DNA of 52,532 nt from assembly GCA_030535455.1 (NCBI GenBank), contig JAUNJY010000030.1, forward strand, positions 1 to 52,532. The letters are read 5' to 3'. Shown here piece after piece: positions 2,053 through 33,266 of this stretch. The position numbers and the translations under genes were made by a program. The stretch is from a bacterium (GTDB lineage Bacteria > Bacillota > Clostridia > Lachnospirales > Lachnospiraceae). Each line of letters starts with the position of its first letter. Position 1 is the first letter of the stretch. The notes beneath the pieces are model-generated. The model searched no databases and was not told where the DNA came from. It saw only the letters and a list, made by a program, of their open reading frames with translations.

Positions 2053-3567
2053 TCAGGACTCTTTTTTCTTTTTAATAGCCTCCTCGATTGCATTTACAAC
2101 AGTCTCTAAGATCTTAATCCTTGCATAATATTTGGAGTTGGCTTCGACTATTACCCATGGTGCATTGGTAGTAGAGGTGCGAACAACCATTTCATCAACT
2201 GCTTCTTCATATAAATCCCATTTAGAACGATTTCTCCAATCCTCTTCTGTAATCTTCCATTGCTTTTCTGGGTCCTCCTGTCTTGCTGTAAATCTCTTTT
2301 CCTGCTCGTCTTTATCAATATGAAGCCAGAATTTTATGACTACACATCCAGAATTGGTCAATAGTTCTTCCATACGATTGATTTCATTATATGCACGTTT
2401 ATATTCTTCCTTAGAACAAAAACCTTCGACACGCTCAACTAATACTCGTCCATACCAAGTCCGGTCAAAGATTGCTATATGTCCTGCTTTAGGCATTGCT
2501 CTAAAAAATCTCCATAAATAGTGATGAGCACGTTCTTCGTCATTTGGAGCTGAAATTGGGATTACTTCATAGCCTCTTGGATCAAGTGCCTGGGTCAGAC
2601 GCTTAATGGCCCCACCTTTTCCTGCTGCATCCCAACCTTCCAAAGCCAACACAACAGGTATCCTTCGTTTTAAGATTTCACTGTGAAGAATGGTCAACCT
2701 ACCTTGCAACTCTTTTAAGCGTTTCTGGTATTCCTCCTTGGTATAGGAATTTGTTAGATCTACATGAGTCAGAACTCCGGGTTTAAATAATGGATTTTCT
2801 TTCTCCTGCTGCCATGTAACTCCTTCTTTTGCCGGTGGAGTTTCTTTTTTATATTTCACCTTGTCTACAGCATCTTTTAACCGAGCCACTACCGTATCTA
2901 AAATCTTTGCTGTTGCATAGCGTCTGTCAGTTGCCTCCACAATCGTCCAAGGCGCATATTCTGTGTCTGTCTTAGCTATCATATCGTCATAATACGGAAC
3001 AATGTTTCCATACTCACCATGATACTTCCAGTCCTGCTTGGTCACTCTCCATGATGTTGCCTTCTTTTCTTCCAGCTTGCGAAACCGTTTCTCTTGTTCT
3101 TTTTTCGAAATATGAAGAAAAAACTTAATCAGTATGGTACCTGCATCACTTAGCTGCTTTTCAAACTCTGTAATTTCATCATAGGAGATATCTGCCTGAC
3201 TTTGTTGCAAATCATCAAATACCCTTTCTTTAATAATATGACTATAGTAGCTTTGATCAAATATATGAATCCTTCCTTTTGCAGGTGTCTCAATCCAGTA
3301 TTTCCGTAGATACGGATATAATTTTTCTTCTTCTAATTCTTCACTGATTGCATATACCTTAAATCCTCTTGGGTCCAAAGGCATAATTAACTTATTGATC
3401 AGTGTTCCTTTTCCAGAGGCACTCCATCCTTCCATAAGGATCATAATTGGTATCTTTTGTTCCTTACATTCTCGTTGTAAAAGCGCTAATTTGCTTGTAA
3501 CAGTATCTATATACTCTTTGTACTCCTCTTTGGTCATCGACTTGTTCAGATTGATCTTTTCTAACAT
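2053..3567 (-). CDS. Two-domain PPK2 polyphosphate:AMP phosphotransferase
   Basis: This 504-residue protein is made of two tandem PPK2 domains (about 10-240 and 270-500). PPK2 enzymes move phosphate between polyphosphate and nucleotides. The fused two-domain class makes ADP from AMP. The C-terminal domain has an intact Walker A (EGWDAAGKGG) and lid/Walker B segment (IFDRTWYGRVLVER). The N-terminal domain keeps Walker A (EGWSASGKGT) but has IFDQSYYSH where DR(S/T)WY is usual. Family studies place catalysis in the C-terminal domain, which fits. The ATG at 3567 follows a GGAATGAGGG ribosome site. The gene stands alone, with more than 200 nt of non-coding sequence on each side. Confidence 0.92.
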   Translation of the reverse strand: MLEKINLNKSMTKEEYKEYIDTVTSKLALLQRECKEQKIPIMILMEGWSASGKGTLINKLIMPLDPRGFKVYAISEELEEEKLYPYLRKYWIETPAKGRIHIFDQSYYSHIIKERVFDDLQQSQADISYDEITEFEKQLSDAGTILIKFFLHISKKEQEKRFRKLEEKKATSWRVTKQDWKYHGEYGNIVPYYDDMIAKTDTEYAPWTIVEATDRRYATAKILDTVVARLKDAVDKVKYKKETPPAKEGVTWQQEKENPLFKPGVLTHVDLTNSYTKEEYQKRLKELQGRLTILHSEILKRRIPVVLALEGWDAAGKGGAIKRLTQALDPRGYEVIPISAPNDEERAHHYLWRFFRAMPKAGHIAIFDRTWYGRVLVERVEGFCSKEEYKRAYNEINRMEELLTNSGCVVIKFWLHIDKDEQEKRFTARQEDPEKQWKITEEDWRNRSKWDLYEEAVDEMVVRTSTTNAPWVIVEANSKYYARIKILETVVNAIEEAIKKKKES

Positions 3568-30519: not shown

Positions 30520-30993
30520 TTATCTTCTGCTTTTTTGTACCGGCTCACCCGTGAACGGGTCTATATATTCGTTCAACGTCATTTGATCTGCTTCCAAATC
30601 TTCTTTCAATTGATTTGCAATATATTCTTGAATTTTTTTTGTATTCTTTCCTACCGTATCTACATAATATCCCCTGCACCAAAAATGACGATTTCCATAC
30701 TTATATTTTAAATTTGCGTGTCTTTCAAAAATCATCAATGAACTTTTTCCTTTTAGATATCCCATTATTTCGGACACACTATATTTTGGTGGAATTCTCA
30801 CAAGCATATGAATATGATCTTTGCAGCACTCTGCTTCAATAATTTCTATTCCTTTTCTTTTACAAAGAGTGCTTAAAATCTGACCTACATCTTCTTTGAG
30901 TTTTCCATATATAATCTGTCTTCTATACTTTGGTGCAAACACCAAATGGTACTTGTATTCCCATGTTGTATGGGCTAAACTGTTGGTATCCAA
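30520..30993 (-). CDS. tnpA: IS200/IS605-family transposase TnpA (Y1 HUH)
   Basis: The transposase cuts and rejoins single-stranded DNA. The start is TTG 30993 with AAAGGAGG 7 nt upstream, giving 157 residues. It has the family start (YKYHLVFAPKYRRQIIYG), the HUH pair in DHIHMLVRIPP and a Tyr-bearing helix following RGYYVDTVGKNTKKIQEYI. All key residues are present, so the enzyme may be active. The longer frame to 31038 has no better start site. Confidence 0.93.
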   Translation of the reverse strand: MDTNSLAHTTWEYKYHLVFAPKYRRQIIYGKLKEDVGQILSTLCKRKGIEIIEAECCKDHIHMLVRIPPKYSVSEIMGYLKGKSSLMIFERHANLKYKYGNRHFWCRGYYVDTVGKNTKKIQEYIANQLKEDLEADQMTLNEYIDPFTGEPVQKSRR

Positions 30994-31108
30994 TTGGATA
31001 ACCTCCTTTGCTTTTATATTTTTGGTTGCAATCCTCAAATATTATAAGCACAGGAGGTTTTTCTCGTATAGGGAGTATTTTGCTTGAAGCTAAAGCTGTC
31101 TGGGGACA

Positions 31109-32785: not shown

Positions 32786-32842
32786 AATAAAAAAGAAGGA
32801 ACTACTTAGTTCCATATTTCTATGAGAATTAAGTAGTTCCTT
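32786..32842 (-). terminator. Terminator of the small-peptide cassette
   Basis: AAGGAACTACTTA (32796-32808) pairs with TAAGTAGTTCCTT (32830-32842), 13 bp without mismatch. On the minus strand TTCTTTTTTATTT follows. It separates the peptide genes from the downstream hydrolase gene. Confidence 0.85.
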
Positions 32843-32858
32843 TGTAAAAACTGTTTCC

Positions 32859-32887
32859 GGCTTATAGGGCTTTATGTCCTATAAGCC
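32859..32887 (-). repeat. 3' hairpin of peptide gene copy 2
   Basis: GGCTTATAGG (32859-32868) and CCTATAAGCC (32878-32887) form a 10-bp stem with a 9-nt loop. It overlaps the last codons and stop of copy 2. The same hairpin follows copy 1 directly after its stop, at 33020-33050. Confidence 0.7.
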
Positions 32888-32968
32888 ATACCTGTCGATT
32901 GGCTCATCTCCGACAGAACTGTATTCGTTAGCCTCTTTTTGATTGTTTTGGTTACTTAGATTGTCCAT
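32879..32968 (-). CDS. Small peptide gene, copy 2 (29 residues)
   Basis: ATG at 32968 with GAGGAGGG 7-8 nt upstream; the peptide starts MDNLSNQNNQK and continues EANEYSSVGDEPI-DRYGL. It is acidic, has no Cys, no hydrophobic segment and no signal peptide. Compared with copy 1, the stop TAA is TAT, so translation runs three codons into the 3' hairpin. No family is recognised; a signalling peptide or a leader-type precursor is possible, but no modifying enzyme is adjacent. Confidence 0.6.
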   Translation of the reverse strand: MDNLSNQNNQKEANEYSSVGDEPIDRYGL

Positions 32969-33019
32969 CGCGGTTCCCTCCTCAATCTGTATTTTTACAC
33001 AATTGTAAAAATATGCTTC

Positions 33020-33050
33020 GGCTTATAAGACTTTTTACATCCTATAAGCC
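33020..33050 (-). repeat. 3' hairpin of peptide gene copy 1
   Basis: GGCTTATA (33020-33027) and TATAAGCC (33043-33050) directly follow the copy 1 stop codon on the minus strand. No good T-run follows, so read-through into copy 2 is likely. It may stabilise the message. Confidence 0.65.
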
Positions 33051-33134
33051 TTACTTGCCGATTGGCTCATCTCCAACAGAACTGTATTCGTTAGCCTCTG
33101 AAGATTGAATGCTTTGGTTACTTTGACTTTTCAT
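33051..33134 (-). CDS. Small peptide gene, copy 1 (27 residues)
   Basis: ATG at 33134 with TAGGAGG 8 nt upstream (a near-perfect ribosome site). The peptide starts MKSQSNQSIQSS and continues EANEYSSVGDEPIGK. The 13-residue block EANEYSSVGDEPI is identical to that of copy 2, with one silent base change. The upstream stretch TTGTGTAAAAA is also shared. Tandem duplication of a whole cassette with conserved translation signals argues for a real gene, too short for default gene callers. Function unknown. Confidence 0.62.
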   Translation of the reverse strand: MKSQSNQSIQSSEANEYSSVGDEPIGK

Positions 33135-33266
33135 CGTTGTTACCTCCTACATTCAGAATTGTTTTTACACAACTAGTATGTGTCGATTGAAAAGTTCTTA
33201 TTCGTACTTTTAAGACTTTTTTTCAAGTCGATAATAAATAGACGTTCTTCATTAATATAAGCTTTT

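Follow-up and report, generated by a model that had tools for sequence, protein, structure and literature searches.

A family of small structured RNAs with a forespore-type promoter and a short open frame, found in tandem in a Lachnospiraceae genome

Tandem copies on the minus strand of the contig

The sequence analysed here, referred to as the window, is one whole contig of 52,532 nucleotides (JAUNJY010000030.1, assembly GCA_030535455.1) from the 4.35-Mb genome of a member of the Lachnospiraceae. A preliminary description of this DNA had reported two minus-strand frames of 27 and 29 codons with 13 common residues, EANEYSSVGDEPI, and both were seen on reading, together with the sole base change over the 13 shared codons (GTT/GTC), which is silent. 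An AGGAGG site at each frame, a common upstream stretch, TTGTGTAAAAA, a hairpin, GGCTTATA, in both copies, and one 13-bp terminator shared by the two were likewise present as described. The unit proved to be larger than this and consists of a forespore-type promoter, two tandem RNA domains and the terminator (Table 1). The upstream stretch forms a stem, designated P1, with a strand located beyond the stop hairpin, and the Shine-Dalgarno/AUG region itself lies within a conserved hairpin; both features had been missed. The two copies belong to a family marked by this fold, by a promoter of forespore type and by an open frame.

A 40-base block occurs twice in the window, compared to a maximum of 0 in 100 dinucleotide shuffles when up to three mismatches were allowed. 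The tandem folds much better than its shuffles (z -6.77, 0 of 100 as good). As had been noted, TAT is read in copy 2 at the position of the copy-1 TAA. The second copy of a relative, G001, has TAA there, so the stop of copy 2 was probably lost in the lineage of the window. Peptide and covariance-model scans recovered only the two tandem copies from the genome of the window.

Table 1 Features of the tandem element in the window.
Feature	Position	Strand	Basis
Forespore (sigma G/F-type) promoter: -35 GAATA, 18-base spacer, -10 CATACTA	33174..33203	-	pattern match
RNA domain 1 (copy 1)	33002..33170	-	covariance-model match, E 2.2e-30
P1 5' strand, copy 1, TGTAAAAAC	33161..33169	-	fold and alignment
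P1 3' strand, copy 1, TTTTTACA	33004..33011	-	fold and alignment
Shine-Dalgarno AGGAGG, copy 1, within P2 hairpin	33143..33148	-	sequence reading and fold
27-codon frame, copy 1, MKSQSNQSIQSSEANEYSSVGDEPIGK, stop TAA	33051..33134	-	translation
P3 stop hairpin, copy 1, GGCTTATAGG...TCTTATAAGCC	33020..33050	-	fold and alignment
RNA domain 2 (copy 2)	32841..33000	-	covariance-model match, E 1.7e-23
Shine-Dalgarno AGGAGG, copy 2	32977..32982	-	sequence reading
29-codon frame, copy 2, MDNLSNQNNQKEANEYSSVGDEPIDRYGL; reads through TAT into hairpin	32879..32968	-	translation
P3 stop hairpin, copy 2	32859..32887	-	sequence reading and fold
Final P1 3' strand, GTTTTTACA; partner in tandem fold is the first 5' strand of copy 1	32843..32851	-	fold
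Terminator: 13-bp stem AAGGAACTACTTA/TAAGTAGTTCCTT and T tract	32789..32842 (13-bp terminator at 32842-32796)	-	sequence reading, fold, stem covariation across 22 units

Fold, distribution and genomic setting of the family

The usual order of parts, from 5' to 3', is GNATA, 17 or 18 bases, CATANTA, three bases, (U)UGUAAAACC (P1), a short spacer, GAAUG, AGGAGG, AUG, the frame, usually UAA with a hairpin (P3), GGUUUUA(C/U)A (P1) and the terminator. P1 closes the element by pairing the probable 5' end with the stretch just 5' of the terminator, and P3 stands at the stop in most copies. P2 is formed by GAAUG and, in codons 8-10, CAUUC. In copy 2 of both the window and G001 the pairing is GAUUG with CAAUC, a compensatory change that alters the peptide. 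Inside P2, CC pairs with the last two G of the Shine-Dalgarno sequence, and the AU of AUG lies in a small helix. A possible fourth stem within the frame (GGCU/AGCC or GGAUUAAGUU/AGCUUAUCC), found by eye and in single folds, was left out of the counts.

The structure was assessed in an alignment (A4) of 23 rows, one of them cut, made without G001 copy 2, G003 copy 2, G445b and the second peptide type described below. In these units, 96.7% of 717 cells were paired, and 13 of 32 pairs had changes on both sides (shuffled mean 5.5; reached in 0 of 500 shuffles). Control structures slid along the alignment were 31-44% paired in the same count, and 31-59% at most over either count. Covariation lies mostly in P3 (9 of its 11 pairs), with one compensated pair each in P1, P2 and two inner helices. 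In the terminator stem, 9 of 13 pairs changed on both sides across 22 units. When 30 units were folded singly, P1 pairing was at least 0.95 in 26; the remaining four, with values of 0.42 to 0.67, were G576, the two G003 copies and G587, which is truncated at its contig end. These results indicated that a conserved RNA structure with covariation is present. Most of the 22 units retain CUUA/UAAG as the terminator core, with covarying flanks, a combination that looks unusual in an ordinary terminator.

The element is carried by 21 genomes, identified by peptide, pattern and covariance-model scans, from the Lachnospiraceae, the Cellulosilyticum/Niameybacter family and two Clostridium species. With the copy-1 peptide as query, matches at E 1 were obtained in 6 of 98 relatives, own genome included. 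A peptide profile matched in 11 of 397 family genomes at E 0.1; six with E 6.1e-10 or better were accepted, and the five weaker matches were discarded because four lay in frames of at least 176 codons and the fifth was without the element on reading. A DNA pattern run over species genomes gave 14 stretches, 13 of which were real on inspection; a match in Phaeocystidibacter (L025) was judged by eye to be chance. A covariance model (R1) built from 11 units matched in 11 of 392 order-level genomes, in all 14 genomes chosen as known carriers and in 10 of 24 genomes of the Cellulosilyticum/Niameybacter family. With stricter filters, R1 matched only the genome of the window among 352 class-level genomes. 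The pattern had a lone match in 391 class-level genomes, attributed to chance since it precedes a longer reading frame and is without the 3' stem strand; the class-level pattern also fails on the window's own copies and so misses part of the family. Searches of phage and plasmid records found no similar DNA, and viral contigs gave 0 matches. Thirteen viral pattern matches were rejected as chance, 12 for want of the 3' strand and one (L081) for want of a start codon at the spacing.

One or two copies were found in 20 of the 21 carriers (excluding a partial match and a third G003 match at E 0.099), and three genomes have the element in tandem. Of the eight matches in Niameybacter, two are degenerate; six copies, four intact and two degenerate, lie within about 18 kb in the region 338000-364000 (L092, L093), with at least one glycyl-radical enzyme gene among them. 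The table of 30 units leaves out the two degenerate copies and one intact copy (place 359868) of Niameybacter and a partial G535 match.

Rfam 15 gave 0 matches over the whole window. Over nine loci at E 5, only chance-level Rfam matches were found at some unit ends (for example, 24.5 bits against a gathering threshold of 60). The only strong Rfam match among these loci was a T-box elsewhere in L013, a leader at 2075-2285 (+) near the L. phytofermentans unit. For four GDEPI-type peptides, the type found in the window, no family was identified in NCBIfam or Pfam (Pfam at E 1).

The units viewed in other genomes mostly adjoin different genes. The sole shared neighbours found were the putative DNA-repair radical SAM genes TIGR03915/TIGR03916, near two units of the second type, and a gene upstream of the A. 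populeti and UBA5725 units; because this gene is common to both (by eye), inheritance there is vertical. The preliminary description had seen no enzyme for ribosomally synthesised and post-translationally modified peptides next to the frames, and none was seen by eye among the neighbours of the stretches examined. No modifying enzyme or exporter was conserved beside the peptide, by eye, in nine stretches from six genomes (three Niameybacter, two G445 and one each from G543, G060, G003 and G084), six short loci and the frames of the window. A riboswitch or leader of a downstream gene was considered and rejected, as the element has its own terminator and no shared downstream gene by eye. In the window, the element is preceded by a Mur-ligase gene, presumably murE, and followed by a choloylglycine-hydrolase-family gene (PF02275; 31563-32657, -) whose scores do not reach the NCBIfam thresholds for bile salt hydrolase or penicillin V amidase. 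An IS200/IS605-type transposase gene (PF01797, NF033573) lies at 30520-31038 (-), about 1.7 kb downstream of the element.

Promoter class and coding signal

The strict promoter pattern GNATA-N17/18-CATANTA was found in 15 of 27 units (second tandem copies excluded), each match ending 3 bases 5' of the element. Single-base shuffles gave a mean of 0.0125 and a maximum of 1 over 2000 rounds. By these motifs, the promoter is of the forespore (sigma G/F) class at transcription-start spacing. The consensus letters are those we take to define this class; the literature passages drawn on describe the consensus without letters.

A promoter matrix was derived from 24 units, leaving out second tandem copies, G445b, Niam3 and G060, and applied to up to 200 bases upstream of small acid-soluble spore protein (SASP) genes in carrier genomes. 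The 29 genes tested came from 31 fetched stretches, out of 58 listed matches, and where no start codon could be located, as for several genes, the start was placed at the boundary of the Pfam match. At 18 of the 29 genes, 8 of them near-identical orthologues, the matrix score was reached by at most 10 of 200 shuffles. In this promoter the element resembles SASP genes (PF00269), yet its RNA is structured and the four scanned GDEPI-type peptides matched neither the SASP model nor any other in Pfam. SASP genes were present in 20 of 21 carriers and in 196 of 299 genomes of a family sample (Fisher p = 0.003), a comparison limited by carriers drawn from several families, by the presence of some of them in the sample itself and by the non-independence of related genomes.

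The frame is 27 codons long in 20 of the 28 units measured (range 26 to 32), and the start codon and ribosome-binding site stand at similar spacing in the units read. Two peptide types were distinguished. Coding tests of the GDEPI type left out two copies with a 3-base deletion, the second (GAYPP) type, G445b and G587. The 22 GDEPI units contained 0 stops compared to 10.3 expected when columns were shuffled among sequences, and the 11 units from different genomes contained 0 compared to 3.8 expected, a result reached in 35 of 5000 shuffles. BLOSUM similarity was only mildly high (30 of 400). Third codon positions are fixed in all 22 units at some codons, for example GAG at codon 13 and ATT at codon 9, and a fast-changing centre (codons 15-20) is flanked by conserved ends. 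GDEPI-type peptides are charged and look hydrophilic, with no hydrophobic leader by eye; all 24 printed are net negative, and all four of the GAYPP type are net positive.

The GAYPP type comprises four complete units (G543, G576, G570 and G060) and G587, which is intermediate in sequence. R1 matches all five (E 2.5e-7 to 2.5e-4), and all five keep the P1 5' strand, P2, the start and the ribosome-binding site (AGAGG in G570). The four complete units retain P1 in full, lack P3 by eye and encode M(R/K)(Y/H)...SY.A..GAYPPK in frames 26 to 28 codons long. Folded singly, they kept P1, P2 and the start-codon hairpin, the latter with different bases. In the three close units, 18 of 26 pairwise codon differences were silent (0 of 1000 permutations), and with G060 added 32 of 67 were silent (1 of 1000). 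The ratio of amino-acid-changing to silent differences per site (pN/pS) was 0.29, with two pairs sharing one sequence. This silent excess, from few changes in four sequences, suggests a translated frame and is the best evidence for one. The G543 and G060 units (L098, L099), from two genera, both lie near TIGR03915 and TIGR03916, suggesting one ancestral site.

A probable forespore mini-mRNA and its alternatives

Taken together, family, fold, promoter class and open frame lead us to infer expression in the forespore and translation. The element is probably a self-closed mini-mRNA produced in the forespore, with a translated peptide and a fold that is under selection in its own right. Inside the developing spore, a forespore sigma factor (sigma G, perhaps sigma F as well) would transcribe this tandem gene for a small structured RNA, probably from a start at or within the P1 strand to its own terminator. 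P1 would join the 5' end to the pre-terminator stretch and so close the RNA on itself, the second hairpin would hold part of the Shine-Dalgarno sequence and the start codon, and the short frame would be translated to a small peptide, acidic in the GDEPI type and basic in the second. We would guess that the closing stem shields the RNA ends, giving a long-lived RNA suited to storage in the spore, and that translation may be gated or delayed by the start hairpin, perhaps until germination. The two types have much the same frame length, promoter, ribosome-binding site, closing stem and start-region hairpin, and the peptide differs. It is a doubtful further step to see here a forespore RNA chassis with an exchangeable peptide payload, a self-closed message deposited in the spore and translated on opening of the start hairpin during germination.

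Several observations weigh against the forespore mini-mRNA. The strict promoter is absent from 12 of the 27 units, seven of which have a looser form and five neither. The matrix signal is lacking at 11 of the 29 SASP genes, and the combined pattern precedes none of the three SASP genes in the genome of the window, though one has CATAATA. The strict pattern is not enriched across the genome (54 compared to 58 for the reversed control), so the promoter case rests on its fixed position. Sigma F and sigma G are indistinguishable here, and no SASP match was obtained in one carrier, G205 (86% complete). Alignment A4, having been fitted to the model, leans towards this structure, the GAYPP units fold singly only modestly better than shuffles (z -1.4 to -2.6), and the structure, promoter and coding tests share phylogeny, so their counts are not independent. 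Silent changes are no more frequent in the GDEPI type than in permuted alignments (521 of 3179, or 0.164, compared to 0.158; 166 of 400), and differences at codon positions 1, 2 and 3 number 1229, 1959 and 1908, with second positions most variable. Eight close pairs have a pooled pN/pS of 0.61, one of them with 6 amino-acid-changing and 0 silent differences. The main constraint on these nucleotides thus lies outside the protein code; conservation of the GDEPI type is largely at the RNA level, and its coding signal is slight. A broken frame with the hairpins kept, named in the preliminary description as evidence against a peptide, was found in one of the 30 tabulated units. G445b keeps P1, both strands of P2 and a terminator, its frame reads MKI-stop and its Shine-Dalgarno sequence is altered. 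Given an intact copy in the same genome, it may be a decaying paralogue.

A role at the RNA level, put forward earlier as a rival to the peptide, proved at least as well supported, in view of the covarying helices over the frame and the absence of a silent excess from the GDEPI type. The fixed third positions and the frameless G445b would also fit a forespore small regulatory RNA acting by structure or base pairing, with the GDEPI frame incidental or a by-product. We nevertheless regard this as possible but rather unlikely, since the frame is open beyond chance, the start codon and ribosome-binding site are kept at similar spacing and silent changes are in excess in the GAYPP type. That excess, with the uniform net charge of the peptides in each type, would in turn suit a small spore peptide gene whose mRNA is structured for stability only, the fold having no role of its own. 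Constraint at the nucleotide level within the frame, together with base-pair exchanges that leave the closing stem and the start-region hairpin intact, makes this improbable.

The preliminary description had proposed a signalling peptide or an unmodified precursor. A translated peptide from the frame is likely; the signalling, export and precursor roles were left without support. The fast-changing centre between conserved ends is what such a peptide might show, but inspection by eye revealed no hydrophobic leader and, beside the listed stretches, no common exporter, receptor or enzyme, and the promoter belongs to the forespore type, so that an exported signal or precursor is scarcely credible. 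A non-autonomous mobile repeat merely bearing a spore-type promoter is very improbable. The mostly differing flanks, the tandem copies and the eight Niameybacter matches speak for it, and the low copy number in 20 of 21 carriers, the covarying helices and the site shared, by eye, by A. populeti and UBA5725 speak against it.

The mRNAs of hok-type type I toxins fold back between their 5' and 3' regions. The element resembles them in being a tiny mRNA with a stem joining these regions and a structured start region. It differs in its charged, hydrophilic-looking peptides (GDEPI type) and its forespore-type promoter; antisense RNA was not looked for. A word search of the literature, supplements not covered, gave no description of this RNA; the passages drawn on came from PMC9147052, PMC12456014, PMC3789822, PMC7438776, PMC11109978 and PMC8501984. 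As described in a passage of the last, SR1 of Bacillus subtilis is a dual-function 205-nt small RNA that encodes a small peptide, SR1P, and affects sporulation (PMC8501984). The likeness is that of a small RNA also encoding a small peptide, the sequences of SR1 and the element not having been compared. SR1 is under a sigma A promoter and its peptide is 39 residues long, whereas the element has a forespore-type promoter and a stem closing 5' on 3' end. Bvs196 and CsfG are forespore small RNAs of Bacillus, set beside the element by description only, and the passages on them mention no encoded peptide.

The family illustrates that a 27-codon frame can look strongly conserved mainly through its RNA. 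The element is short enough for complete testing, and a compact, folded message of forespore type with a frame offers a defined object for asking if spores store RNA that is ready to translate.
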